A DNA stretch of 64,000 bases from an uncultured bacterium (GCA_937958695.1 CALGNK010000001.1:37378-101377), one strand, 5' to 3'; shown: positions 49,262 to 64,000, counted from the first letter of the stretch. The notes: a model not told the origin generated them from the letters alone. Translations and numbers: made by a program.

Positions 49262-49292
49262 AAAAGTTTCAACTCCTTATAACTTTTTCATA

Positions 49293-49321
49293 ATTATACT
49301 CAGGATGCTAATTGGTGTCAA
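49293..49321 (-). promoter_or_regulatory. Consensus promoter of ccdA
   Basis: The minus strand has a perfect TTGACA (49321-49316), 17 bp, then a perfect TATAAT (49298-49293). The start would fall about 25 bp ahead of the ccdA ATG. It is the closest match to the sigma-A consensus I found in this window and overlaps the rightward promoter of the LctP gene. Confidence 0.8.
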
Positions 49322-49341
49322 ATATGATAAAATCTTATAAA
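49312..49341 (+). promoter_or_regulatory. Possible promoter of the LctP-type permease gene
   Basis: TTGGTG (49312-49317), 18 bp, TATAAA (49336-49341) on the plus strand, about 25 bp ahead of the ATG at 49367. It occupies nearly the same DNA as the -35 of ccdA on the other strand, so the two genes may compete for polymerase. Confidence 0.4.
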
Positions 49342-49366
49342 ACTATGGAAAACAAGGAGAATAGAG

Positions 49367-50875
49367 ATGATAGGAGATTACAAAGAATTGCTAAAGTTAC
49401 TATCTGCTATAATTCCTCTATTTTGGCTCTGCTATGCCCTTGTATCTAGAATCATAAAACCATATATAGCTTGCATTATATCCCTCTTTATAACGATTCT
49501 AGGAGCTGTTTCTCTTTGGAATACATCTACTGATATAATTTATTGGTGTATTATAGACGGCATTATCTCTTCCCTATACCCAATTATTTGGACCATCTTT
49601 GGAGCCCTTTTTACCTATAGACTTATCTGCGAAGTTGGAGCGATTGAGGGAATTAAAAGAAGTTTATCTAGCTTGTCAGACAGAAAGATAATACAGGCAC
49701 TTATAATAGCCTTCTGTTTTGGAGCTCTCCTTGAAGGTATAGCGGGATTTGGAACATCAGTTATAGTTCCGTCTGCCATACTTTTATCTCTAGGGTTTAC
49801 CCCTTACCAATCTGCCATAGTCTCTCTGTTATCAAATACTGTTCCGGTAGCCTATGCCGCTATAGGGGTACCAGTAGTAGCATTAGCAAGGATTACTAAT
49901 CTACCCCTAAAAAACCTTAGTGGAGTGATAGGCTTACAACTCTTTCCAGTAACCTTAATTATTCCCTTCTTTATAAAGAAGTTCCTAAAAGAATCAGCCA
50001 ATGTCTCTCTTCTTTTAGGTAGTGGAATTGTGTTTGCCATAACTCAAAGCCTTGTTAGTTGGTATGTTGGACCAGAACTTCCTGCAATTTTAGCTCCATT
50101 CTCTACAATAGGATTTTTGATTTTCTATTTAAAAGTAATAGAGAAAGAAGATACCAATAAAAAACTTTATAGAGAAGACCTAAGGTCTTGGATGCCGTAC
50201 ATATTAATTATATCACTTATACTCATAACTAGATTTAGCAAGGGTATAAATAAACTACTAACTTCGTATCCACTTTCATTCACATTAGCCCTGGAGATGA
50301 TAGGTAAAACTATAAAGATAGATCCTCTCTATACACCTGGAACAATCATAATGCTTTCTGCCATTATAGGAGGACTACTAATGAAAGCTAAAACTAAAGA
50401 TTATAAAAAAGCACTTTCTGGAGCATTAATACAGATTCTACCGACTATCTCAATCATTACATCTATGATGGCTATGGCTAATATTATGAGTTACGCAGGA
50501 ATGACTAAACTTCTTGCCATTAAACTTATACAGGTATTTGGTAGCTTCTATCCTCTTGTATCTCCATTTCTTGGAGCAGTAGGGACATTCTTAGGGGGAA
50601 GCGATACTGCTTCAAATTTGCTCTTTGGGACTTTACAAACTGAGGCAGGTAAGAATGTGGGTGTCTCAGTAATATGGTTAGCAAGTGCCAACGCTAGTGG
50701 AGCAACTGGAGGAAAACTTATATCACTTCAGAATCTTACCTTGGCAGTTTCAGGGATAAATAAAAAAGGAGAAGAAGGAAACTTAATGAGACTTGTGTTT
50801 CCTTACACTCTCCTCTATCTAGTATTTATGGGTTTAACCATCTATATAGGAGCAAGAATCTTTATATATCACTAG
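49367..50875 (+). CDS. L-lactate permease (LctP) family transporter
   Basis: The 502-residue protein has 12 or more membrane helices and the family block FGALLEGIAGFGTSVIVPSAILLSLGFTP; PVAYAAIGVPVVALARIT and FLGGSDTASNLLFGTLQ are also typical. LctP proteins move lactate, glycolate or other 2-hydroxy acids with protons. Here it neighbours a LarA-family racemase and sugar-acid-type enzymes, so a 2-hydroxy acid or sugar acid is a plausible substrate. AAGGAGA precedes the ATG. It ends one base from the stop of the convergent GH38 gene. Confidence 0.88.
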   Translation: MIGDYKELLKLLSAIIPLFWLCYALVSRIIKPYIACIISLFITILGAVSLWNTSTDIIYWCIIDGIISSLYPIIWTIFGALFTYRLICEVGAIEGIKRSLSSLSDRKIIQALIIAFCFGALLEGIAGFGTSVIVPSAILLSLGFTPYQSAIVSLLSNTVPVAYAAIGVPVVALARITNLPLKNLSGVIGLQLFPVTLIIPFFIKKFLKESANVSLLLGSGIVFAITQSLVSWYVGPELPAILAPFSTIGFLIFYLKVIEKEDTNKKLYREDLRSWMPYILIISLILITRFSKGINKLLTSYPLSFTLALEMIGKTIKIDPLYTPGTIIMLSAIIGGLLMKAKTKDYKKALSGALIQILPTISIITSMMAMANIMSYAGMTKLLAIKLIQVFGSFYPLVSPFLGAVGTFLGGSDTASNLLFGTLQTEAGKNVGVSVIWLASANASGATGGKLISLQNLTLAVSGINKKGEEGNLMRLVFPYTLLYLVFMGLTIYIGARIFIYH

Positions 50876-50876
50876 C

Positions 50877-53800
50877 CTATTTATTAGGATTTAGATAGAA
50901 GGTATTTCCCATATATACAAGTTTTATTATGCTCCAACTTTTAGTTTTTTTATAATCTATCTTCAAGCTATACTCTTCTTTAGGTCCACAGTAGAAGTTA
51001 AATCTTTCGGGAATGCTTTCAAGGGCAAACTCTCCAACAAGATCTTTACCCCATGACTCTAAGGGAGCACTTATAATAATTTCTCCATCTATCTCAAACT
51101 GATTGGGATTATATATACAGACCTTACCATCTCTAAAAGAAACATCTAAAGGACTCATCTCTCCTAAGAAGAGAACATCCTTATAACTCTGTCCTTCATA
51201 TTCCCATATAGATTCTACAATACCAGAAGCATCATCTTCACAAATAGCAACCTCATATCTAGCATAACTAGAAGGAGATAATTCAAATTCTACAATTCTC
51301 TTATCTAATACTATCCCTACCGATCTAAGATGGACCTTACCTGAAATTCTCTTGTCAATAAGGTCATTAGCTATATAGAGTGTTATCTTCTCTCCTTCTC
51401 TCCTTAATGATGCTATTAGGGGAAGATTTCCAATTGGTGAAGCTCCTCCATTATGCCTCCAGTATCTCACATATACAGGCTGATGGGGTTCAGCCTGTAC
51501 ATCATACTCTAAATATTTCAATGGATTCCTCTTTAAGGAAAGCTTATAGGTTTCTATTGAGAATGGGGGAAGATGAAATCTAATAACAGGTGCAATATCA
51601 TTCTCCATAAGATCAGTCCTATTCACTTTTAAAATAGGAAAGCTAGAGTAAATATCGAAAGGTGTATCCTTACCACAAGGTTCATAGACTCTTATAATAA
51701 CATTATTATAACTATCAACATCTCCAATTGGTCCTGCAAGAGGAGTCCCTTCTAATTTTAAAGTGGTAAGTATAATATTGCTATCTCCAAAATTTATAAA
51801 ACTATATCTTTTTGGAAGCCTCCCACCATGGGAAGAAGTAACTATAGCGTCTAGATTAAAATTAAAATCCATAGCCTTTCTATAAGATTTTGCCTCGACC
51901 CAAGTACCTTTATGAGGATAAAGAGCATATAAAAATCTATGTGTTCCCTCTTCGGGAATAAAGTCAAAATCAAAATGCTTTCCAGACCAATTAGCCGTGT
52001 GCTGTAAAAGCATTACAATAGTTCCATCAGTTTCTACACTGTTACTTATATTGCCTTTATTCAACAAGGTTAACCCATAAGATAAAGCTTCCCTATGGGT
52101 TATAAATCCTTCTTCTTCTGAAAGCTCTATAACTCTATCCTCTAGGTCTCTATCTATCCTAGAAAGAATATCTATAAACCTAGATATATCCTTTACAGAA
52201 ATGATAAGAACAGGGATATCATCTTCTACTAATAGTATTCCATACCCATTTTCTTCTAAAGCTTTCTGAAAATTTTTAACTACTTCCTTAGGTAAGTTAG
52301 AAAGTATCTTCTCGGTATAAATATTACTAGGGAATCCGATAGATATCCTAAACGTTGCAAATATATCCTCCTCAATTGGAGGTAAAGTGCTATCCTCACT
52401 CAAAAGCTTCTTTCTTCTTTCCTTATCATTATCATCATACATAATAGAAGCAGTTATACCTCTATTGGCTAAAGACTTTAATAGTATAGGGATATTAGCC
52501 TCTATTTCTTTATTATGAGGGATTATTATGTCCGTAAGGCCAATCGGTATGCTACTTGTTCCTACTCTTATAGTTATAGAGGGACCTAAGTCTGTCCATC
52601 TATACGTAGGATATATTCCACAGCCAGAATAGTTCCGCCACTGCCAACTTCTAAAATCTAAGTAACCTTTACTCTTTCTTCTTGTTATTGCTCCAAATCT
52701 ATCCTCAAAGGTAGGAATCGCATTCTCAAGTTTAGTAGAAAAGGTAACAGCAAACATATCATCCCTTGAACTCTTTTTCTTGTAATCAATAATATCAGTA
52801 AGAAATTCTATCCTCTCTATACCTCTATATAGAGTTATCATCTGTTTAAATTTACATATATCACCTATTTCCCCTCTTACAATAAGTCGTTCATAAAGTT
52901 CGTTCTTTTCTCTCTCCACTTCTGCCGGAGATTCACCTGAACCTATTCTTTCACCTGTAGTAAAGACTTCCCATGAAGGTTCTTTCCTATTTGAATCCTC
53001 TTTAAGTATGAAAAGTTCATTCATTCCATCCCCCTCTTTTACAAGCTCCTCTCCTCTATAGATAAGGCTTTTAATTCTTCCACCCTTATTAGGGTCTACC
53101 TCTAACCTGTAGAATTCGTTTTCTATTACTGTACCTTTATCTTTTATTACCTTCTTCTCATCCGCACTTGGCAGGGCAAAGAATACCTTATAGCCTAATG
53201 GCGGAATATCATCGCTTCTAAAAATAACCTCTACACTATTTCCACTTTCTACTGCAAATGAGGGATAAATATTCCCTGAAGCATCTACTATCTTGTAAGT
53301 TCCAAGCGGAAGCTCTACTTTACATAAATCAGAACGTTTCCAGTTTAGGCTATTAAATACTACCACAGGAATCCCTTCTCCTTCTGTGTTCACAAGAGAA
53401 GAGAGAAACTTAAGAGAGTTATCTAATACAAAGCTAGACAATCTTAATGCCTCTCTATATCCTATCATAAGGTCAACGTAAGGTTTATCTCCGGAAGTTC
53501 CAGTTATAGCATCATGATGCTGGTTAAACAATAATTGTCTCCAAGCCTTATCTAAAGCTTTAGTAGGATATCTAGCTCCAAATAGAAAAGCTATTGTAGC
53601 AAACCTTTCAGCCTTTAATAACTTAATCTCCCCTAATCTATTTGCTATCTTTAACTCCACTCTAGAAAGAGAGGTCCCTATATGATAAAAAGCCATATCT
53701 CTAGAGGTGTATGGAATACTAAATCTTTTACCTTTAATCCTGTTTATAAGTTCTTCTATATATTTACTTGGAACTGAAAGAACAATAGGAATCCTTCCTG

Positions 53801-54512
53801 TTCTTAACTCTTTAGATCTCCCTGTAAGCCAGTCAGTTGGAGGATCGGAATCCCCTCCTATAAATCTTAAGTCTATATCCAATCCCATTCCTTCTATTTC
53901 TTCAAATCTCAAAGCTAGATCTTCATTTAATACATCCATATTCTGAAAATGCCCTCCATAATCCACCCTTCTATGAGGAAGAATACTTCCATCTAGGGAC
54001 ATATGATAGAAAACAGGAGGGAATCCTACTACACGCTTAGACCAAACACATCCTAAAAATCCACTCTTTTTAAGAATCTGAGACAACTGAATTGTATGTC
54101 CAAAGACATCTAAGGGTAGATAAACCTTTGGATCTGCTCCTAACTGAAGTTTATGAAAGGTCATACCGTAGAAGATATTTCTAATTAAGGCTTCATCTCC
54201 TATACTGTTTTCATTTGGTTCACTATAAGCTCCACCTAAATCTAGTCTTCTTCTAGATACTAGATATCTTATAAATGCCCTATCTTCTGGATACATATCC
54301 CAGTAAGGTTTTAGATAATCTAGTTCAGAAAGAAGAATGGTATATTCGTCATCTTTTCTACAACAATCTAGATAAGCCTTTACTAAGTCCAAAAAACCAA
54401 GTGGATGACGTGTCATCTTGGGGAGAACTTCTCCTCCTTCTTGATACATGTTCTGATCGGCTATCCATACAGGATCACAGTGAAAATGTGGAACAAGATA
54501 GATCTCTCTCAT
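50877..54512 (-). CDS. GH38-family alpha-mannosidase
   Basis: The 1211-residue protein is a large glycoside hydrolase 38. The N-terminal catalytic domain has the zinc site HFHCDPVW (His9, His11, Asp13), the nucleophile region YLPLDVFGHT (Asp135) and the second zinc motif FNQHHDAITGTSGD (His333). The rest is GH38 C-terminal beta domains (about residues 380-1211). There is no signal peptide, so it acts in the cytoplasm on imported mannosides or related glycosides. GGAGGG lies before the ATG. It follows the RuBisCO-like gene by 15 bp in the same direction. Confidence 0.92.
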   Translation of the reverse strand: MREIYLVPHFHCDPVWIADQNMYQEGGEVLPKMTRHPLGFLDLVKAYLDCCRKDDEYTILLSELDYLKPYWDMYPEDRAFIRYLVSRRRLDLGGAYSEPNENSIGDEALIRNIFYGMTFHKLQLGADPKVYLPLDVFGHTIQLSQILKKSGFLGCVWSKRVVGFPPVFYHMSLDGSILPHRRVDYGGHFQNMDVLNEDLALRFEEIEGMGLDIDLRFIGGDSDPPTDWLTGRSKELRTGRIPIVLSVPSKYIEELINRIKGKRFSIPYTSRDMAFYHIGTSLSRVELKIANRLGEIKLLKAERFATIAFLFGARYPTKALDKAWRQLLFNQHHDAITGTSGDKPYVDLMIGYREALRLSSFVLDNSLKFLSSLVNTEGEGIPVVVFNSLNWKRSDLCKVELPLGTYKIVDASGNIYPSFAVESGNSVEVIFRSDDIPPLGYKVFFALPSADEKKVIKDKGTVIENEFYRLEVDPNKGGRIKSLIYRGEELVKEGDGMNELFILKEDSNRKEPSWEVFTTGERIGSGESPAEVEREKNELYERLIVRGEIGDICKFKQMITLYRGIERIEFLTDIIDYKKKSSRDDMFAVTFSTKLENAIPTFEDRFGAITRRKSKGYLDFRSWQWRNYSGCGIYPTYRWTDLGPSITIRVGTSSIPIGLTDIIIPHNKEIEANIPILLKSLANRGITASIMYDDNDKERRKKLLSEDSTLPPIEEDIFATFRISIGFPSNIYTEKILSNLPKEVVKNFQKALEENGYGILLVEDDIPVLIISVKDISRFIDILSRIDRDLEDRVIELSEEEGFITHREALSYGLTLLNKGNISNSVETDGTIVMLLQHTANWSGKHFDFDFIPEEGTHRFLYALYPHKGTWVEAKSYRKAMDFNFNLDAIVTSSHGGRLPKRYSFINFGDSNIILTTLKLEGTPLAGPIGDVDSYNNVIIRVYEPCGKDTPFDIYSSFPILKVNRTDLMENDIAPVIRFHLPPFSIETYKLSLKRNPLKYLEYDVQAEPHQPVYVRYWRHNGGASPIGNLPLIASLRREGEKITLYIANDLIDKRISGKVHLRSVGIVLDKRIVEFELSPSSYARYEVAICEDDASGIVESIWEYEGQSYKDVLFLGEMSPLDVSFRDGKVCIYNPNQFEIDGEIIISAPLESWGKDLVGEFALESIPERFNFYCGPKEEYSLKIDYKKTKSWSIIKLVYMGNTFYLNPNK

Positions 54513-54527
54513 AATACCCTCCAGTCT

Positions 54528-55847
54528 TTATAACAATCTTAATAATTCCTTTAACCTCTTTCTCTCTGCATATTCTTTTAACTTTTCTTTTTCTATTATC
54601 TCTTCATCATAATAAGCCTGAACCGCCTGGTGCATTGCTATAGCTCCTGCTTTTGGCCCATCAGGATGTTTTAAGACATTAGACCCAGCCAAGAGAGCAA
54701 CACCGTAACCAAATCTCTCGTCTTTATGTTCTTTAAGATTTATTCCAACATTAGTTACTCCAAGTCCACCGGCAGAAACAGGAATTGTATCTTTAATACC
54801 AGGAGTATCTTCCCTTAGAACCTTAACTAAATTATGAAGCAATCCATCGTCTAAAGATGCAACATGCATCTCCTTCATGCCAAAAACTCCGTGCTGAAAG
54901 AAATCTGCCCCACTATATCTTAATAGCTTTGCTATTACAGTATCGTCTATTCTTCTAGGCCCAGTAGAAAGACCTGATCTGCCTCCAGAGTGTGCATATA
55001 AGGGGACATTTATATCTTTATCTTCAGCCAAAATACTTAGCACCTCATACGTATGACCAAGTACTGCATTAAACATTAATGCAGTGGCACCCCACTCTAT
55101 AGCTCTTTTAGCCACATCTTTAATCTTATCAGCTCTTGCAACTATATGTGGAGCATAAAGACATTTTCGTCCAGTCTCTTCTTCTGCCATTTTCAAAGCT
55201 TGAGAAACAAGCCTTACTTTCTCTTCCAAAGGACAATAATTAGGTCCAAGCATCTTTTCATCATCCTTTATAAACATCACACCACCAAGAGCTGATTGAT
55301 AGCACTTCTCTGCTACTTCCTTAGGAGTTAACCCTGCACATGGCTTCATAATTGTTCCAATAATGGGTTCTCCATCTTTAAGATTTAAAAGCTTTCTAAC
55401 ACCATTTATGCCAAACTTTGGACCTGGAAACCTTTTCAAAAAGCTCTCTGGAAAGACAAAATCTAAAAGGGCTACTTGTTGATAATAGACAAACTCAAGT
55501 ACAGGTCCTCCTACCGCAAGCATTATAAATTGGTATAGAGGATCTGCCTCTTGAGAGATATTAGATAAAGGCGTTCTCACATAGATTACTCCCTCATTCT
55601 CTCCATATCTTTCTATTCTATCCACATCTGCCTGAGAGCGGATGAATAGTTCTGTCGGTTCTCCTTTTCCAATCCAAGGACCGGTAGTTTCATCTCTAGC
55701 TATATCCTTAGCTACTTTTATTAAGTCTTTATCCGTTTTTATATAAAATTTAAGCTCTATAGACTCTTCATTACTAAATTTAGATCCAAGATATATTGTC
55801 TCTAAGATTTTTTTGTCCTTTAATTCATAAGGTATGTATTCCTCCAT
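54528..55847 (-). CDS. RuBisCO-like protein (form IV type)
   Basis: The 439-residue protein has the RuBisCO large-subunit fold: GTIMKPCAGLTP (Lys168, K175 equivalent), the metal-binding VMFIKDDEKM (Lys194, Asp196, Glu197; carbamylated Lys site) and KFGINGVRKLL. By-eye alignment shows changes that argue against carboxylating RuBP: canonical HRAMH reads HSGGR (R295 lost), SGGIH reads SAGGLG, the phosphate loop GGG reads AGS, and GKLEG of loop 6 reads MKEMH, although Lys325 aligns with K334. Known relatives act as enolases, isomerases or decarboxylases on sugar-phosphate-like substrates. It precedes the GH38 gene and diverges from the DapA-like and LarA-like genes. Confidence 0.9.
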   Translation of the reverse strand: MEEYIPYELKDKKILETIYLGSKFSNEESIELKFYIKTDKDLIKVAKDIARDETTGPWIGKGEPTELFIRSQADVDRIERYGENEGVIYVRTPLSNISQEADPLYQFIMLAVGGPVLEFVYYQQVALLDFVFPESFLKRFPGPKFGINGVRKLLNLKDGEPIIGTIMKPCAGLTPKEVAEKCYQSALGGVMFIKDDEKMLGPNYCPLEEKVRLVSQALKMAEEETGRKCLYAPHIVARADKIKDVAKRAIEWGATALMFNAVLGHTYEVLSILAEDKDINVPLYAHSGGRSGLSTGPRRIDDTVIAKLLRYSGADFFQHGVFGMKEMHVASLDDGLLHNLVKVLREDTPGIKDTIPVSAGGLGVTNVGINLKEHKDERFGYGVALLAGSNVLKHPDGPKAGAIAMHQAVQAYYDEEIIEKEKLKEYAERKRLKELLRLL

Positions 55848-55885
55848 CTAGTCCTCCTTTTTTATTTTGCGAAATATTACTTAAT

Positions 55886-55913
55886 ATTTTACTACAAATT
55901 GCTAAGTATACAA
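55886..55913 (-). promoter_or_regulatory. Promoter of the RuBisCO-like/GH38 operon
   Basis: On the minus strand TTGTAT (55913-55908), 16 bp, TAAAAT (55891-55886). The -10 lies within TGTAGTAAAATATTAA (55896-55881), similar to boxes at three other promoters in this region. The gene's AAAGGAGGA follows before the ATG at 55847. Confidence 0.5.
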
Positions 55914-56012
55914 TAGTAAAGTATGCTATTCTTTGAATTACCTGACATAAAGATAAATAAATACTATTATTTTAGTAAGAAAAATAAATATACAAATTAT
56001 TGATGAAAATTT

Positions 56013-56041
56013 TTGACAGTCAAATATGGGCCTGTTAAAAT
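56013..56041 (+). promoter_or_regulatory. Promoter of the DapA-like/LarA-like operon
   Basis: A consensus TTGACA (56013-56018), 17 bp, TAAAAT (56036-56041) with a TGT extension. The -10 is part of TGTTAAAATTTTAA, which contains the perfect palindrome TTAAAATTTTAA (56035-56046) and resembles the other boxes in this island. The GTG start follows at 56082. The 234-bp gap to the RuBisCO-like gene otherwise holds only AT-rich sequence. Confidence 0.7.
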
Positions 56042-56081
56042 TTTAATCTAGATCTAATATTTTATAGGAGGTGTTACTAAA

Positions 56082-57035
56082 GTGATAGAATTTAAAGAGC
56101 TAAAAGATAAAATCAAGGGCATCGTAGTAGTTATGATAACTCCATTTAAAGAAAACTATGAATTAGATGAAGAAGGGCTAAGAAAACTTACAAGATTCCT
56201 TATAGATAGCGGAATTAAAGAGGGCAATGGAGTATTAGTTCCTGCTGGCAGTACCGGAGAATGTCCTATGCTTACGGATGAAGAAAGAAAAAGAATTTTT
56301 GAGATAGTAAAAGAGGAGGCTGGTAATAATGTTCCTGTAATTGGTGGATGCAATCATACAGATACAAGAACCGTCATAAAGTTGGTTCATTATGCTGAAG
56401 AGGCAAGGCTTGATGGAGTTATGATAAGTCCGCCATACTACTGGAAACCTTCAGAGAAGATACTTTTAAATCACTACAAAGCCATTGCTAAGGAGACAAA
56501 TTTGGGCATTATGGTTTATAATAACTGGTTTGCCTCTCAGTTAGATATACCAATAGAGACAATGGTAAAACTCGTAGACGAAGTGCCAAATATAGTAGCC
56601 TTAAAAGATAACTCTCCATATATAAGTAAACTTGCTAAAATGATAGAAGTCTTAGGAGATAGAATATCCATAGTAAATGGAGCAGGAGAACCTCACGAAC
56701 CTTACGCTAGCCTAATGGGAGCTCGTGGTTTTGTCACTGGAGAAGCATGTCTAATACCTAAAACCTGTTTAAGCATATATGAAGCTGAGATAAAAGGAGA
56801 GCATCAAACAGCAAAGATGATTCTGAAACAGGCAGGGCCACTCTTAGATTACATACTCGAAGCAGGGGATCATTTAGCAGATTATATAGTAAAAATAAAG
56901 GCAGGATTAAATATAGTAGGACTTCCTGGCGGAATCCCTAGACTCCCATTAAGCCCTGCCGACGAAGAAACAAAAGCTAAAATGAAGAAACTGCTTGAAG
57001 AATATCCTCTACCAGAACTATGGAAGAAATCATAA
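56082..57035 (+). CDS. DapA/NanA-family (dihydrodipicolinate synthase superfamily) aldolase or dehydratase
   Basis: The 317-residue TIM-barrel protein has GIVVVMITPFKENYELDEEGL, the phosphate/carboxylate motif PAGSTGECPMLTDEER, a YNN block (MVYNNW) and the Schiff-base lysine in IVALKDNSP. Members cleave or dehydrate keto-sugar acids or make dihydrodipicolinate; lysine synthesis neighbours are absent, so a sugar-acid lyase such as a 2-keto-3-deoxy acid aldolase is more likely. The start is GTG at 56082 with AGGAGGTG 8 bp upstream. It overlaps the LarA-like gene by 16 bp, so the two are coupled. Confidence 0.9.
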   Translation: MIEFKELKDKIKGIVVVMITPFKENYELDEEGLRKLTRFLIDSGIKEGNGVLVPAGSTGECPMLTDEERKRIFEIVKEEAGNNVPVIGGCNHTDTRTVIKLVHYAEEARLDGVMISPPYYWKPSEKILLNHYKAIAKETNLGIMVYNNWFASQLDIPIETMVKLVDEVPNIVALKDNSPYISKLAKMIEVLGDRISIVNGAGEPHEPYASLMGARGFVTGEACLIPKTCLSIYEAEIKGEHQTAKMILKQAGPLLDYILEAGDHLADYIVKIKAGLNIVGLPGGIPRLPLSPADEETKAKMKKLLEEYPLPELWKKS

Positions 57036-58300
57036 AGTTACCATATGGAGACGAAGAAAGAGAGTTTAACATAAAGGGATTAAAACTCTTAGGTGTATTA
57101 GAGCCTCAAAATTATCCAGAAATAATAGACCAGAAAAATGCTATTTATAGTGCTATCAGAGATCCAGAGTATGGAGCTTCTCTTATAGACATAGCTAATG
57201 GTAAACAATCTGCAGTAATTTTAGTTAGCGATAAGACAAGGAAAACACTAGCTAGAGAGATTATTCCTATCCTTTTGGAAGAACTTACTAAAGTAGACAT
57301 ACCTCTTTCTAATATTACAATAATTATTGCTATAGGGGCTCATCCTATGCTCACCAAAGAGGAGATTAAAGTCCTTCTGGGGAAAGACGTTACAGAAGCA
57401 GTAACTGTTATAAATCATAACTGTAGAGATGAATCTTCTTTAGTATATAGGGGTGTCTCTTCTAAAGGCACTCCTATATACTTAAATAAAAACTATCTAG
57501 AAGCAGAACTAAAAATATTAACAGGTGCAGTAAATTATCATGATTTCGCCGGTTTTAGTGGAGGAGCTAAATCTATACTTCCAGGGATATCAGGATTCTC
57601 TACCATAAGTCACAACCATCTAATGCTACTAAACCCATCTTTTGGTACAGGATATAATCAAATGGCTACTGCTGGAATACTCAAGGGTAATCCTGTTCAT
57701 GAAGATATGGAAGAGATAGGAGAATTGGCAGGCATAGATTTCATCGTAAATACGGTATTCAATGCAGATGGAGGTCTTTCAAAGATAGTATCTGGTACTA
57801 ACTGGAAACAGGCTCATCGTGCTGGATGCGAAGTTATAGAGAAAATATTTTCGGTAGAGATTAAAGAGAGAGCCGATATAGTTCTTGTAAGTGCGGGAGG
57901 ACATCCGTTCGATATTAATTTCTATCAGGCGATGAAGTCTATAATCAACACAATGAAAATGGTAAAGGAAGATGGAATAATAGTGCTATTAGCCTCTTGC
58001 AAAGAAGGATTAGGAACAGAAAATCTGAAAGAATGGCTTAATATAGAATCTCCTACAAAGTTGGAAGAAGAACTAAGAAATAACTTTAATATGATAGGAA
58101 AGATAGCGTATGATATAAGAATCGGAATAGGAAAGAGGAAGGTCTTTATGATAACGGACCTTCCAAAGGATGAAGTAGAACTTCTAGGATTTAGGAAAAT
58201 AGATAACTTAGAAGAGATAAAGGAACTACTTGATTCGAAAGATAGTCCTACACTATATATGGTTCCCTATGGAAATATTACTGTAGCTAAGTCTAGCTAG
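57020..58300 (+). CDS. LarA-family nickel-pincer-dependent racemase or epimerase
   Basis: The 426-residue protein matches lactate racemase LarA (DUF2088). The key residues fall at the same numbers as in the Lactobacillus plantarum enzyme: His108 (IGAHPM), His174 (VNYHDF), Lys184 (FSGGAKSILPGI; cofactor-linking Lys) and His200 (SHNHLML). Homologues racemise 2-hydroxy acids or epimerise sugar acids such as gluconate at C2, using a nickel pincer cofactor made by LarB, LarC and LarE, none of which is in the window. It overlaps the DapA-like gene by 16 bp and is tail-to-tail with the PHP gene (4-bp overlap). Confidence 0.9.
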   Translation: MEEIIKLPYGDEEREFNIKGLKLLGVLEPQNYPEIIDQKNAIYSAIRDPEYGASLIDIANGKQSAVILVSDKTRKTLAREIIPILLEELTKVDIPLSNITIIIAIGAHPMLTKEEIKVLLGKDVTEAVTVINHNCRDESSLVYRGVSSKGTPIYLNKNYLEAELKILTGAVNYHDFAGFSGGAKSILPGISGFSTISHNHLMLLNPSFGTGYNQMATAGILKGNPVHEDMEEIGELAGIDFIVNTVFNADGGLSKIVSGTNWKQAHRAGCEVIEKIFSVEIKERADIVLVSAGGHPFDINFYQAMKSIINTMKMVKEDGIIVLLASCKEGLGTENLKEWLNIESPTKLEEELRNNFNMIGKIAYDIRIGIGKRKVFMITDLPKDEVELLGFRKIDNLEEIKELLDSKDSPTLYMVPYGNITVAKSS

Positions 58301-59748
58301 TCTTCTATAAATATTGGATTTGTAAAGGCTACCAACTCCTTTCCTTTCCAAAATTCAAGATAGACATAGCCTGAACGTTCTGGAACAAATTCTATCTCTC
58401 CTAACTTGGTATTCCTAATAGTATTAACCTCATTACCGTTATAGATAATTTTAACGTCCGATTCAGTAGAGATAGAATATTTTAGATCTGTAGGCTTTTT
58501 AGATACTGATATACTATCCCCTATATCTGCATTGCCAATCCTAAACCCAACCTCTGGTCCTTTACTTACATAAACTCGACCTTTTTTTACAGAATTTAAA
58601 ACATTACTAAGTGTCAAATCTTCCACTAATACAAAGGTTGCTGGCACGTCTGGATAGATATCCTTTAGTGAATGGATATCAGTAGAACCTATACCAGTTA
58701 TTCTATAACCTTGATTTAATAAGTTTCTCCATAATTTCAAAGCCTCTGTATTCTCATGCCTTCTCTGACTAAATGTTCCTGCCCATACCTCCAAGGCGTC
58801 AACGTATTTCCAATCTACATCAATGATACATCTACAGCCAGTGCAGACAGGGTCTCCTATAGTAAAGGGGTGCGCAACGCAGAAAAGGCCACCTTGAGAA
58901 TGAACCAATTCAGATACCTCAATGATTCCTTTATCAGAATTTATATTATCCCATTCTATATACCTAGTTATACCAAAAGCAGTAAAGTGGCCCCAAAATG
59001 TAGTAAATTCTATTCCAGGAAATAGAGGAAACTTTTCTTCCCTAGCAGATTCCCACCCAGAGATCTTATTATGGTCAGTAAGAAATATAAAATCAAGACC
59101 TCTATCGATAGCATTTTGAACCAATTCTTCAACGGATAGGCTTCCATCACTATGCTTAGTATGGGAATGGAAATCTCCTTTAACCCAACCATTCTTTGGA
59201 CTAAACTTAGTCCATACAGGACTGTAAGAACTAGCAAGTTCAGGTATGTTGATATTTTTCTCCTCCTCATTAAGCTCAATCTTAAACTCTAGATGACACT
59301 TATTAACAACTGCATGGGTCTCAATTACAAGTCTCCATATCCCAGGGTATATGGTTCCTGAAACACAGCCAAAGGAACTAATAGTTTCTCCTATCTTTAT
59401 TGGAATTCCATTGGATATTCTATTATCACCTGTTCCTCTAAAATTCCCTAATGGATCGAAAAGCCTAAAGTTTATAAGGTTTCTTACAGGTATAAATTCT
59501 GCCATCACTTTTTCCAATACATCTTCTGGTAGTGTATCAATATCTAATGGCATATCACCTTGATTTAGATATATTCTTAAAGCAAGTTTAGCTAATTCTT
59601 TAGAGAACGTCTCATCAGCAGATTCAGGCTTATAGTTACCATTAATTATTATTTCTTTTATACCTTCTTTTACCTCAAATGTTATTGGAAAATGTTTCTT
59701 GGTATCCTTCTCAGTAAAATCAAAAACAAAATTATACTCGTATGGCAT
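58297..59748 (-). CDS. PHP-domain metal-dependent phosphoesterase
   Basis: The 483-residue protein has an N-terminal domain of about 190 residues with beta-rich features and no known family, then a PHP domain (WVKGDFHSHTKHSDGSLSVEEL, FIFLTDHNKISG, LFPGIEFTTFWGHFTAFGI, FCVAHPF, GSTDIHSLK), followed by a C-terminal beta domain. The HxH, D-H, E and H ligands are present for three metals. It resembles CehA/McbA-like PHP proteins that cleave phosphoesters or carbamates. It is divergent from the deacetylase gene and convergent with the LarA-like gene. Confidence 0.85.
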   Translation of the reverse strand: MPYEYNFVFDFTEKDTKKHFPITFEVKEGIKEIIINGNYKPESADETFSKELAKLALRIYLNQGDMPLDIDTLPEDVLEKVMAEFIPVRNLINFRLFDPLGNFRGTGDNRISNGIPIKIGETISSFGCVSGTIYPGIWRLVIETHAVVNKCHLEFKIELNEEEKNINIPELASSYSPVWTKFSPKNGWVKGDFHSHTKHSDGSLSVEELVQNAIDRGLDFIFLTDHNKISGWESAREEKFPLFPGIEFTTFWGHFTAFGITRYIEWDNINSDKGIIEVSELVHSQGGLFCVAHPFTIGDPVCTGCRCIIDVDWKYVDALEVWAGTFSQRRHENTEALKLWRNLLNQGYRITGIGSTDIHSLKDIYPDVPATFVLVEDLTLSNVLNSVKKGRVYVSKGPEVGFRIGNADIGDSISVSKKPTDLKYSISTESDVKIIYNGNEVNTIRNTKLGEIEFVPERSGYVYLEFWKGKELVAFTNPIFIED

Positions 59749-59787
59749 CAGTAATTCTCCTTTCTAGATATTTAGTTACTACTAGCT

Positions 59788-59802
59788 TTATATTTTAACA
59801 CA
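59788..59802 (-). promoter_or_regulatory. Shared box with extended -10 ahead of the PHP gene
   Basis: The minus strand reads TGTGTTAAAATATAA: an extended -10 (TGTTAAAAT) within a 15-base box. It matches TGTGCTAAAATTTAA at 59843-59857 on the other strand at 13 of 15 positions. The two face away from each other in the 142-bp gap between the PHP and deacetylase genes. Confidence 0.5.
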
Positions 59803-59842
59803 AAGAGAGAAATTTATTTTAACTACCAGCTCCAAATCTAAC

Positions 59843-59857
59843 TGTGCTAAAATTTAA
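59843..59857 (+). promoter_or_regulatory. Shared box with extended -10 ahead of the deacetylase-like gene
   Basis: TGTGCTAAAATTTAA on the plus strand holds an extended -10 (TGCTAAAAT) 38 bp before the ATG at 59891. No -35 is evident. See the partner box at 59788-59802. Confidence 0.5.
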
Positions 59858-59890
59858 TCGAATAATCCTTATTAGCGAGGAGGAGCTTTT

Positions 59891-61330
59891 ATGTCTAAAG
59901 TATATGTCTTATTTTGGTTTGACGTAGAAGATTTTATGACACCACAAAGTGATGATGCACTTAAAGGTATAATAGATATCTTCGACTCCCTCAAGATAAA
60001 AGGTACCTTTAAACTAGTAGGAGAGAAGGTTAGGATCTTAAAGAAGCGCAGAAGAGAAGATATAATTAACGCTCTAAAAAGACATGACATTGGTTATCAT
60101 ACAGACTTACATAGCATTCATCCAACACCTGTCGAGTATCTAAAAGACTTAGGTTGGGAAGAAGGAATAAAGGAATTTGAGCGTAGAGAAAGATTAGGAT
60201 TCGAAGAAGTAGTTAATACTTTTGATATGACACCCTCCTGTTATGGACAACCTGGAGCTTCTTGGGCACCTCAGGTTTACCCAGTCCTTAAAGAGTGGGG
60301 AATTTCAATGTATCTTGATGAGGCAGAACATATTGGACTTAATGAAAAACCATTTTGGTATTGTGGGATGCTCAATATTATTAGACTTAGGCAAAATACA
60401 ACAAGATATAATTTAGATTTAGGCTATGAGGGAGTCAAGATTGGCATAAACAATTTTGATTCCATAGTTAAAAGACTTTTAGATGAAGGTGGTGGAGTAA
60501 TTAGTATATGGTATCACCCTTGTGAATTTGCTACCTATGAATTCTGGGATGCAGTTAATTTTAGTGGGGGTAGGAACCCAGAAAAGACTAACTGGATTCT
60601 TCCTAAAGTAAAGTCTTATCAAAAAATGAAAAGAGAGCTTGAATTTTTCTCTGAATATGTAAAACATATAGTCTCACATCCAGATATTCAAATTACAACA
60701 GCAAAAGAAATATACGACATATACTCTGATAAATCTAAGAATAAGATATTTTCTATGAATGACATTATATATCTAGCTGAAAGCATTAACTCCTCTATAA
60801 GATATTGCGAAGTTAACAATGTCGTTCTATCCCCCGCTGAAATTTTTTATTTAGTCCTCTCATTACTAGTAGATGTAGAAGAAGGCAAGTTGCCCAAAAT
60901 ATCTGAGAAAAAGTTTAATTTGCCTCCAATAATCTACGGTCCTACTAAGAGAGTTAATAGTGAATTATTATCATGTAATCAAAGAGACTTCCTCTCTGCC
61001 TGCAAGTGGACGGTAGAATTTATTAATAAAAATAGTCGTGTTCCAGATTCTATAAAAATAGAAGATAAGAATATAAGTCCAATAGACATCTTTGCTACAG
61101 CTAATACATTAATATCATCACTTAATAGATCTAAAAACAAATTAAGCCCAGAAGAAGCATTATCCAGTACTATTAAAATAAGAAAAGGAACTCTAATATT
61201 GGAAGATCAAGTCAAAGAAGAAGGGGTATGGAATTGGATCATACTTCCAAAAGACTTCAATGCCCCAAACATAATAGAACTTGCTAAGTTACAAACATGG
61301 ACACTAAAACCAGCATACCCTAGCTATTGA
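59891..61330 (+). CDS. Polysaccharide deacetylase-like protein with a C-terminal repeat domain
   Basis: The 479-residue protein begins with a NodB/polysaccharide-deacetylase-type domain (LFWFDVEDFMTPQSDDAL, GTFKLVGEKV, HDIGYHTDLHSIHPTP). The metal-site Asp-His-His pattern is partly visible (DVED; HTDLHSIH). The last 200 residues hold segments that look like weak pseudomurein-binding-type repeats (SINSSIRYCEVNNVVLSPAE; VEFINKNSRVPDSIKIEDKN). No signal peptide is present, so it may act in the cytoplasm on a sugar or glycan fragment. GAGGAGG precedes the ATG. It leads into the DeoR regulator and the ABC importer. Confidence 0.75.
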   Translation: MSKVYVLFWFDVEDFMTPQSDDALKGIIDIFDSLKIKGTFKLVGEKVRILKKRRREDIINALKRHDIGYHTDLHSIHPTPVEYLKDLGWEEGIKEFERRERLGFEEVVNTFDMTPSCYGQPGASWAPQVYPVLKEWGISMYLDEAEHIGLNEKPFWYCGMLNIIRLRQNTTRYNLDLGYEGVKIGINNFDSIVKRLLDEGGGVISIWYHPCEFATYEFWDAVNFSGGRNPEKTNWILPKVKSYQKMKRELEFFSEYVKHIVSHPDIQITTAKEIYDIYSDKSKNKIFSMNDIIYLAESINSSIRYCEVNNVVLSPAEIFYLVLSLLVDVEEGKLPKISEKKFNLPPIIYGPTKRVNSELLSCNQRDFLSACKWTVEFINKNSRVPDSIKIEDKNISPIDIFATANTLISSLNRSKNKLSPEEALSSTIKIRKGTLILEDQVKEEGVWNWIILPKDFNAPNIIELAKLQTWTLKPAYPSY

Positions 61331-61373
61331 CATTTCGAAAATTTTATGATTAAATATTGAAAGGAGATAGAAA

Positions 61374-62165
61374 GTGAATAAATCTATTTTGAAAGAGAAA
61401 AGAAAGGAAAGAATAATGGAACTTATAAGAAAATTAGGGGTGGTTTCTATTGAAGATTTATCTAGAGAATTAGGATTATCCACAGTTACAATTCGAAAGG
61501 ATATAAAAGAACTGGAAATGTCTGGGTTAGTAGATAGGCTATGGGGTGGAGTATCTATAAAGGAACCTTCTTCTATAGAACCCTCATTTTCTCAAAAATA
61601 CACATTAAATATATTAGAAAAGAAGGCTATTGCTAGGGCTGCAATAAATCTTCTTAATCCAGAAGATATTATAGGGATAAGTGCAGGAACTACAGCTTAT
61701 GAATTCGCAAGACTCCTATACCAATTTCCAAGCATTCATGTAGTTACTTATGGGCTTAACATAGCTTATATCTTAGCAAAAATGGGAATAAATGTTGTAG
61801 TACCAGGCGGATTTTTAAGAGAAAAATCTTTTGCACTGGTAGGAGAAGAGACGGTGTCTTTTTTAAAAAAGATCCATTTAGATAAGTGTTTTATGGGAGT
61901 AGACGGAATAGATATGGAAATTTTAACTGATGTTAATATGTCTGAAGCTGCTGTAAATAGAACCATGATAGAGAGAAGTAAAGAACTTATAGTAATAGCG
62001 GACCACACAAAATTAGGGCAGAGAAAGTTAACCCCTATAGCGCCGACAGAAAGAGTAAAAGTATTAATTACAGACAATAAGGCAGATAAGAGGCTTTTAG
62101 AAGCTTTTGAGAATAAAGGAATAAAAGTCATCGTAGGGGAGGTGAAAGATGAAGAGGATCTATAA
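61374..62165 (+). CDS. DeoR-family transcriptional regulator
   Basis: The 263-residue protein has a DeoR winged helix (KERIMELIRKLGVVSIEDLSRELGLSTVTIRKDIKELEMSGLVDRLWGG in segments) and a DeoRC sugar-phosphate sensor domain (GISAGTTAYEFARLL, VVPGGFLREKSFALVGEE, CFMGVDGID, VIADHTKLGQ). Such proteins repress sugar catabolic operons and respond to phosphorylated sugars. The start is GTG at 61374 with AAGGAG upstream. It stands at the centre of the island and is the obvious candidate to bind the shared boxes. Confidence 0.92.
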   Translation: MNKSILKEKRKERIMELIRKLGVVSIEDLSRELGLSTVTIRKDIKELEMSGLVDRLWGGVSIKEPSSIEPSFSQKYTLNILEKKAIARAAINLLNPEDIIGISAGTTAYEFARLLYQFPSIHVVTYGLNIAYILAKMGINVVVPGGFLREKSFALVGEETVSFLKKIHLDKCFMGVDGIDMEILTDVNMSEAAVNRTMIERSKELIVIADHTKLGQRKLTPIAPTERVKVLITDNKADKRLLEAFENKGIKVIVGEVKDEEDL

Positions 62166-62262
62166 ATAAAAAACTTGGATAGTTAGTGAAAATAGCTTTT
62201 ACAGATGAGGAGAACAGGAGGGGACAAATAAGATAATATTATACGAAAGAGGAGGGAAAATA

Positions 62263-63576
62263 ATGAGTAAATTCTCAAAAACTTTTTATTTAAAATATGT
62301 TATGATGTTTTCCTTTATAGTAATTTGTATCTTTACTTTATATCCTTTGGCATTATCTAAGACAACTCTTACATTTATTTATTGGGTTGATCCGGCAGCT
62401 ATGCCCATATGGAAACAAATAATAGAAGGATTTGAGAAAGAAAATCCAGATATAGACGTAAAGGATATACCTAATCCTGCAGACTACTGGACTAAAGTTC
62501 TTACCATGATTGCCGCTGGAGATCCTCCTGATATTATGATGATGGATTACATATATTTTCCATCTTGGGCTGTTGCTAAAAGGTTAGAATCATTGGATGC
62601 ATTTATAAGAAAGGACAAGTTTGACTTAAAAGATTTTGTTCCAATTTCACTAAAATCTACTAGATATGAAGGCAAACAATATGGGATTCCTATGGATCTG
62701 AATAACCAAATAATGTTTTACAATAAGAATCTCTTTCAAGATGCTGGGCTTAAGGATATAGATTATACTTGGACTTGGAATACTTTCTTAGATGCATGTA
62801 AAAAATTAACCAAAACTGATAGTAGTGGCAAAGTAACCCAATATGGATATGTTACTGAACTCAATTGGGAGCATTTAAGCCCTTGGATATGGATGAATAA
62901 AGGAGATTGGTTTAATTCGACCCTTACTAAATGTACTGTTGATAATCCTAGGACAATTGAAGCTTTTACATTCATAGGAGATCTTATAAATAAATACAAC
63001 TATATGCCTTCACCTACTCGGCAGACAGAAATGGGACTCCCAGGACCACTTCAAATCTTTAGTGCTGGAAAAAGTGGAATGTATTCCTCTGGATTTTGGC
63101 AAATTTCAACCTTAAGGACTATAAAAACTTTCAAATGGGATATAGGTCCGTTGCCATATAAAATATTAGAAAAAGGGAAACCGCTGAGAGCATCAACTTT
63201 AGGGGGAGTACAACTTTGTATACTTTCTACCTCTAAAAATAAAGAAGCTGCGTGGAAGTTTATAAAATACAGAACAAAACCAGAAGTACAGAAATTGGGA
63301 ACAGGATTAGGTCTTTCTATGCCTGCCCTCTTATCTATAGTAAGGTCTAAGGAATTCTTTGATATGTATGCAGGAATAAATGTAAAATACTGCGTCGAGG
63401 CATTAGAGTATACAAGAATGTTTCCAACACACCCCTATTTTGAAAGGATAGATACAGAAGTTTGGCCTGTCTTTGATCAATTATGGTTAGGTAAAAAAAC
63501 AGCAGTTGAGGTCTGCAAAGAATATACAGAAAAAGCAAATAAGATCATGGTTGATGCTAAACCTTTCAGGAGGTAA
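62263..63576 (+). CDS. Sugar ABC transporter substrate-binding protein
   Basis: The 437-residue family-1 extracellular binding protein has a hydrophobic N-terminal export segment (YVMMFSFIVICIFTLYPLAL) and typical blocks: TLTFIYWVDPAAMPIWKQIIEGFEKENPDI, AAGDPPDIMMMDY, YGIPMDLNNQIMFYNKNLF, and STLGGVQLCILSTSKNKEAAWKFIKY. No lipobox cysteine is seen after the helix, so it may be a signal-anchored or cleaved periplasmic protein. It would deliver an oligosaccharide or glycoside to the permease that follows. GAGGAGGG precedes the ATG. In the 97-bp gap before it, I see no clear promoter. Confidence 0.9.
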   Translation: MSKFSKTFYLKYVMMFSFIVICIFTLYPLALSKTTLTFIYWVDPAAMPIWKQIIEGFEKENPDIDVKDIPNPADYWTKVLTMIAAGDPPDIMMMDYIYFPSWAVAKRLESLDAFIRKDKFDLKDFVPISLKSTRYEGKQYGIPMDLNNQIMFYNKNLFQDAGLKDIDYTWTWNTFLDACKKLTKTDSSGKVTQYGYVTELNWEHLSPWIWMNKGDWFNSTLTKCTVDNPRTIEAFTFIGDLINKYNYMPSPTRQTEMGLPGPLQIFSAGKSGMYSSGFWQISTLRTIKTFKWDIGPLPYKILEKGKPLRASTLGGVQLCILSTSKNKEAAWKFIKYRTKPEVQKLGTGLGLSMPALLSIVRSKEFFDMYAGINVKYCVEALEYTRMFPTHPYFERIDTEVWPVFDQLWLGKKTAVEVCKEYTEKANKIMVDAKPFRR

Positions 63577-63578
63577 AA

Positions 63579-64000
63579 GTGAATCGGCGGACTCGTAGAG
63601 AAGTTATAGAATTTTATATTGCTATATCTCCCTGGTTAATAGGTTTTGCTATCTTTACAGTATATCCTTTAGCTTTCTCTTTTTATCTAAGTTTTCATGA
63701 TTGGAATTTACTTGAGCCATGGAAATATATAGGTCCTTTGAATTACAAAAACATATTCTTGAAAGATCAACTCTTTAAGCAATCTTTAAAAGTGACGACT
63801 ATATACACAGGAACAAGCGTTCCTTTAGGAGTCGTTACGGCACTTATATTAGCGTCTTTATTAAATAGGCCTACTATAAAAGGACTTTCTATATTTAGAA
63901 CCATATTTTACTTACCATCAGTAATTTCTGGGGTAGCTGTAGCAATTCTATGGATGTGGATATTTAATCCAGAATTCGGAATAATAAATTATCTTTTAAA
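63579..64000 (+). CDS. Sugar ABC transporter permease (MalF/UgpA type), partial
   Basis: About 140 residues are present before the window ends. The GTG start follows AGGAGGTAAAA, whose ribosome site lies inside the end of the binding-protein gene. The sequence (REVIEFYIAISPWLIGFAIFTVYPLAFSFYLSF; LLNRPTIKGLSIFRTIFYLPSVISGVAVAILWMWIFNP) is a UgpA/MalF-type permease N terminus with the first helices. The second permease, and any further catabolic genes, should lie to the right. Confidence 0.93.
   Translation, partial: MNRRTRREVIEFYIAISPWLIGFAIFTVYPLAFSFYLSFHDWNLLEPWKYIGPLNYKNIFLKDQLFKQSLKVTTIYTGTSVPLGVVTALILASLLNRPTIKGLSIFRTIFYLPSVISGVAVAILWMWIFNPEFGIINYLL

Follow-up and report, generated by a model that had tools for sequence, protein, structure and literature searches.

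A RuBisCO-like protein clade with its own predicted active site, and a LarA-like gene overlapping a DapA-family lyase gene, in a putative carbohydrate-utilisation locus of an uncultured bacterium

Carboxylation of ribulose-1,5-bisphosphate (RuBP) by RuBisCO needs the loop-6 lysine and a second phosphate site. Relatives of RuBisCO that do not fix CO2 throw light on the way in which this fold acquired its chemistry; a function is known for few of them. One described RuBisCO-like protein (RLP) is MtnW, the enolase of methionine salvage that acts on 2,3-diketo-5-methylthiopentyl-1-phosphate (DK-MTP-1-P), and the apionate RLPs are stated to decarboxylate or transcarboxylate 3-oxo-isoapionate-4-phosphate (PMC6302742, citing Carter 2018). 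For LarA, the family of nickel-dependent 2-hydroxyacid racemases and epimerases, specificity quartets have been described for lactate (F,F,W,E/Q), gluconate epimerase (E,V,A,H), hydroxyglutarate (Y,F,H/Q,T), malate (x,x,H/Q,K) and hydrophobic substrates (x,x,F/Y,x) (PMC11770544). Here we analyse a stretch of 64,000 nucleotides from an uncultured bacterium (G000:C1:37378-101377, hereafter the window), in which genes for an RLP and a GH38-type glycosidase lie next to genes for a DapA-like and a LarA-like protein. A sequence-only reading had united these four proteins in one sugar-acid pathway; its genes are real and its family calls sound, and its interpretation is over-joined. With a modest lean in its favour, we read the region as a carbohydrate-utilisation locus of separable modules, with the RLP and the dapA-larA pair acting separately. 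Comparison within the genus covered three metagenome-assembled genomes (MAGs), namely that of the window (G000) and those of two sister species (G001 and G002), and the other genomes compared are related only at the level of domain.

A maximum-likelihood tree was built from 50 proteins of the RuBisCO superfamily and rooted for drawing only. In it, the RLP belongs to a clade (A; support 100/100) that unites the genus with sequences from Omnitrophota, Aerophobetes and other MAGs at 58-62% identity. Its sister, clade B (support 99/96; 35-45% identity), holds sequences from Chloroflexota, Armatimonadota, Planctomycetota and Acidobacteriota. Both clades are separate from the OiaX-labelled, MtnW-labelled and RuBisCO-type sequences, with some long branches joining beside them, and the RLP scores far under the curated NCBIfam cut-offs for MtnW, OiaX and RuBisCO III. 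Alignment to a form I sequence shows the equivalents of K175, K201, D203, E204 and H294 to be retained (as K168, K194, D196, E197 and H286), and RuBisCO K177, R295, H327, K334, N123, T65 and S379 to be replaced by C, S, Q, H, P, P and A. Judged from these positions, the metal and carbamate residues are kept and the CO2- and phosphate-binding residues are lost. Such a site would still allow Mg2+ binding to a carbamylated lysine and enolisation of a substrate, with the determinants of RuBP carboxylation missing; a true RuBisCO was rejected because the carboxylase and phosphate-site residues are gone, and carboxylation is very unlikely. The structure is predicted with confidence (pLDDT 90), and the TM scores of the model to structures of RuBisCO and RLPs are 0.74-0.83. 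No relatives were found in viral contigs. No description of the clade was found in the open-access literature, a scope that leaves the main RLP papers outside, and a prior description is possible.

OiaX, the 3-oxo-isoapionate-4-phosphate decarboxylase, has the RuBisCO fold, the equivalents of K175, K201, D203, E204 and H294, and a sugar-acid context in common with this RLP. Taking the apionate RLPs as precedent, and given that kinases beside clade members could provide the phosphate, the RLP might be a decarboxylase or transcarboxylase of some other branched sugar acid. We consider this unlikely, however, as identity to OiaX is about 30% and the score of 133 bits is far below the OiaX cut-off of 700, and OiaX keeps the R295 and K334 equivalents, where the RLP clade has serine (S287) and histidine (H328). 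MtnW is similar in its fold, its metal site and its lack of carboxylation determinants, and it is among the best PDB and NCBIfam scores of the RLP, which might suggest an enzyme of methionine salvage or S-adenosylmethionine recycling placed by chance beside sugar genes. This proved not to be the case for the methionine-salvage enolase that the sequence-only reading had named as a finding that would make its pathway unlikely. The RLP reaches 187 bits against a cut-off of 409 and 154 against 514 in the MtnW equivalog models, forms a separate clade with high support, has P115 in place of the MtnW base lysine K123 and has sugar genes as neighbours at related loci, and no acireductone dioxygenase scored over threshold in the window's genome. 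Such a role is highly improbable, and was rejected on score, tree, P115 and the dioxygenase not being found.

Several relatives of the RLP in other lineages have sugar genes as neighbours. In Aerophobetes (L069), the gene occurs with those for a DRL/SAF oxidoreductase, a xylulokinase-like FGGY kinase, a 2-hydroxyacid dehydrogenase and a transketolase, and the locus further carries a CehA/McbA hydrolase, a sugar ABC importer and a PfkB kinase, while in Pelolinea (L074) it occurs with PfkB and FGGY kinases and a LacD-type aldolase. Elsewhere, a PfkB kinase (L070), an RPE-like epimerase and a Gfo/Idh oxidoreductase (L078), an IlvD-type dehydratase (L071) or a GatZ/KbaZ-like protein (L065) is encoded nearby. 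Since sugar kinases, aldolases, epimerases or a transketolase are present at several related loci, a sugar-phosphate enolising role of the RLP is likely. The sugar or sugar-acid context proposed earlier for the window's locus is supported.

Both sister species encode a second RLP that is distant (36% identity) and scores closest to MtnW without reaching its cut-off (L016 6785-11202 in G001; L017 3389-9293 in G002). Its gene lies directly upstream of those for E1-alpha, E1-beta and E2 of a 2-oxoacid (acetoin-type) dehydrogenase, and this RLP was not found in the window's genome. An FGGY rhamnulokinase-like gene also lies at the G002 locus. The clade-B RLP gene of Zipacnadum is likewise followed by E1/E2-type dehydrogenase genes (L076 9989-15148).

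The DapA-like protein resembles the superfamily of dihydrodipicolinate synthase (DHDPS), N-acetylneuraminate lyase and 2-keto-3-deoxygluconate-type aldolases in its GSTGE motif, catalytic tyrosine and Schiff-base lysine. In contrast to DHDPS, it has alanine at R138, the residue that binds the carboxylate of aspartate-semialdehyde; moreover, it has a distinct YNNWFASQLD motif and scores below every equivalog cut-off. A separate DHDPS-like paralogue with R138 is encoded elsewhere in the same genome. These features point to a Schiff-base 2-keto-acid lyase type rather than DHDPS, in support of the earlier reading as a DapA-like lyase. In the more distant genome G143, an orthologue with 72% identity is encoded after a sugar ABC importer and before an Ldh_2-type 2-hydroxyacid dehydrogenase and a regulator looking IclR-like by eye; searches of G143 for an RLP (E 1e-20) and for LarA (E 1e-40) found neither. 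The DapA-like protein thus has a C2 epimerase of 2-hydroxyacids as its partner in one setting and a 2-hydroxyacid dehydrogenase in another, which fits a 2-keto-acid substrate.

The LarA-like protein keeps the full nickel-pincer site (equivalents of D72, R75, H108, H174, K184, H200, Q295 and K298), and larC, for biosynthesis of the nickel-pincer nucleotide (NPN), was found in all three genus genomes by a search for that gene, in line with the racemase or epimerase type assigned from the sequence. Its specificity quartet (positions 175, 176, 358 and 359) is D,F,K,I, which fits no described class (LAR, GntE, MAR, HGR, HHR). All NPN-binding and catalytic residues are common to it, LarAH10 and the malate racemases LarAH5/6, yet its scores of 390, 369 and 334 bits are under the respective cut-offs of 540, 500 and 462, and its nearest homologues outside the genus have 37-38% identity. 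Of 30 LarA loci, the only ones with a DapA gene alongside were the genus pair and one in G029, whose DapA is distant (28%). A second LarA-family gene in G002 (L056 7048-8358), which differs at the Q295/K298 site and at the neighbours of H174, sits between sugar ABC importer genes.

The arrangement of the locus and its sister loci bears on how these proteins might be related. The RLP and GH38 genes diverge from dapA-larA across 234 bases, the stop of the RLP gene is 15 bases ahead of GH38 in the same direction, making cotranscription of the two likely, and dapA and larA overlap by 16 bases, an overlap retained in G002. In G001, LctP, RLP, PHP, CE4, DeoR and substrate-binding-protein genes lie in one piece without GH38, dapA and larA in between; searches of the whole G001 genome gave neither a LarA of this type nor, at E 1e-45, an orthologue of the DapA-like protein, and its GH38 proteins are all of other kinds. 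In G002, LctP-GH38-RLP stands at the end of one contig and a second contig carries GH116-dapA-larA-PHP-CE4; the GH116-type glycosidase gene directly upstream of dapA-larA (L055 1-2256) has no counterpart there in the window. Because G001 keeps the RLP without dapA-larA and no RLP was found in G143 beside its DapA-like protein, the RLP and dapA-larA have, on gene content, separate histories. Under lenient gap scoring, larA of G000 aligns at its 3′ end to the G001 gap better than 5000 of 5000 shuffles, a hint of a faint larA remnant and so of loss in G001; 7 of 2409 other windows match equally well, the G002 gene is not supporting (406/5000) and strict scoring is weak.

In the pathway first proposed, GH38 would free a mannose-type or sugar-acid unit, LarA would invert its C2, the DapA-like enzyme would cleave it and the RLP would handle a keto intermediate. 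The four genes are adjacent in G000, all four enzymes are also encoded in G002, where their split over two contigs is compatible with a similar order, and GH38, dapA and larA are jointly missing from G001. However, the RLP is retained in G001 without the other three; no homologue of LarA, of this DapA type or of GH38 was seen near the RLP in 17 clade A/B loci from other lineages, many of them short; the DapA-like orthologue of G143 is paired with Ldh_2, with neither an RLP nor this LarA found; and the locus has no aldonate dehydratase, dehydrogenase or kinase to connect the steps. Given the patterns in G001, the 17 loci and G143, the expected co-occurrence of RLP, LarA-like and DapA-like proteins in related genomes was largely not seen. 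A single pathway of all four is accordingly unsupported and quite improbable, and the order of its steps found no support. A catabolic unit of dapA-larA and GH38 (glycoside release, 2-hydroxyacid epimerisation, 2-keto-acid lyase), with the RLP as an unrelated resident, would account for the co-variation of the three genes in three species and for the overlap of dapA and larA. This too is rather unlikely: GH38 follows the RLP gene closely, on the strand opposite to dapA-larA, the co-variation is a single absence event, and such a trio was not found elsewhere.

In the modular locus that we favour, the core kept in the sister species would consist of the LctP-type permease, RLP, CehA/McbA hydrolase, CE4-like deacetylase, DeoR regulator and sugar ABC importer; the permease and the hydrolase are kept in all three species of the genus. 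Variable cassettes would be GH38 behind the RLP, and dapA-larA, with GH116 upstream in G002. Several points weigh against this reading. Modularity is based on three species of one genus, and the joint absence of GH38, dapA and larA from G001 is perhaps one loss event, so that the trio could be cooperating. Furthermore, three Omnitrophota RLP loci have no sugar genes nearby, and a shared DeoR operator or regulatory motif was sought across the intergenic regions of the locus, with no motif better than shuffles.

From gene order, phyletic pattern, residues and folds we infer classes of reaction only. The RLP most probably uses a carbamylated lysine (K194, together with D196 and E197) to bind Mg2+; it would enolise a sugar-phosphate or keto-acid substrate and re-protonate it, as an isomerase, epimerase or tautomerase, with decarboxylation possibly added. 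Apart from the RLP, LarA would invert C2 of a polar or acidic 2-hydroxyacid by nickel-pincer hydride transfer, the lysine at position 358 predicting a side chain that is acidic or highly polar, and the DapA-like protein would cleave or dehydrate a 2-keto acid bound to it as a Schiff base. We suggest tentatively, at somewhat less than even likelihood, that clades A and B, which span at least six phyla and at several loci lie near genes for sugar kinases, aldolases or transketolase, represent a new functional class of RLP in sugar or sugar-acid breakdown and also that the nickel-pincer epimerase of the dapA-larA pair has a new specificity, both reactions lying outside every known pathway. New here, as far as sequence comparison goes, are an RLP clade that is associated with sugar genes and has an active site of its own, and a LarA whose specificity residues are unmatched and whose gene overlaps a DapA-family lyase gene; the data do not extend to a new pathway. 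An RLP clade with a distinct active site, found in several phyla near sugar kinases and importers, offers clear candidates for assay, and the LarA-like protein, with its unmatched quartet and a gene overlapping that of a 2-keto-acid lyase, makes a promising starting point in the search for a new substrate of nickel-dependent epimerases.

Apart from the ABC importer, which is truncated because the contig stops at the window end, all named genes are full open frames, and the expected families were matched (Pfam, NCBIfam; Table 1). Gene set and placement agree with the sequence-only reading, including the divergence, except for the strand of the PHP gene. That gene does encode a PHP domain, as predicted, but is convergent with larA, and its product is a CehA/McbA-type metallohydrolase.

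Table 1. Features of the locus, in window positions.
Feature	Position	Strand	Basis
LctP-family (lactate/glycolate-type) permease	49367..50875	+	Pfam Lactate_perm E 1e-101; TIGR00795 332.9 bits vs cut-off 341
GH38-type glycosidase, 1211 aa, divergent	50877..54512	-	four GH38 Pfam domains; HxDPxW, LPLDVFGH, HHDAITGT motifs
RuBisCO-like protein (RLP), separate clade	54528..55847	-	RuBisCO_large match, tree, residues, fold
RLP/dapA-like divergent intergenic region	55848..56081	.	sigma-70-like promoter TTGACA-17-TAAAAT at 56013-56041 (+), consensus match only
DapA-family lyase, not DHDPS	56082..57035	+	DHDPS family match; R138 to A; Schiff-base K and Y retained
LarA-like nickel-pincer-nucleotide 2-hydroxyacid racemase/epimerase	57020..58300	+	Lar_N/LarA_C; quartet D,F,K,I
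PHP-domain CehA/McbA-family metallohydrolase	58297..59748	-	NF038032 250 bits, cut-off 80
CE4-like carbohydrate deacetylase fold, no sequence family	59891..61330	+	weak model; FDxED and HxxxH motifs
DeoR-family regulator	61374..62165	+	family match to DeoR
Sugar ABC importer substrate-binding protein	62263..63576	+	SBP_bac_1 match
Sugar ABC importer permease, cut by contig end	63579..63998	+	open frame

The GH38 protein has N-terminal, middle and C-terminal domains (four Pfam domains in all, over gathering cut-offs) and reads HCDPVW, LPLDVFGH and HHDAITGT at its motifs, in keeping with a nucleophile Asp and Zn ligands as expected of the family. Domain order and catalytic motifs are as in mannosylglycerate hydrolase and alpha-mannosidase, but it scores 100 bits against the mannosylglycerate hydrolase cut-off of 1138. 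At the other end of the locus, a CcdA-like gene is separated from lctP by only 105 bases in the window (49262-49366), where both sister species have an MFS-transporter-like gene (L014 7251-8465; L015 3136-4350) that the window is missing.

The call of a deacetylase-like protein stood in part: no Pfam or NCBIfam match was obtained, while a weak model (pLDDT 66) with FDxED and HxxxH motifs has fold matches to CE4 deacetylases (E 5e-6). Its family is rare and unnamed, and its members are probably carbohydrate deacetylases. Homologues with 25-39% identity are encoded in an Armatimonadetes MAG, 8 kb from a clade-B RLP gene (L073 19167-20564), beside a GH4 gene in G185 (L207 4847-6268) and beside a hexosaminidase-like gene in G056 (L208 2591-4084).

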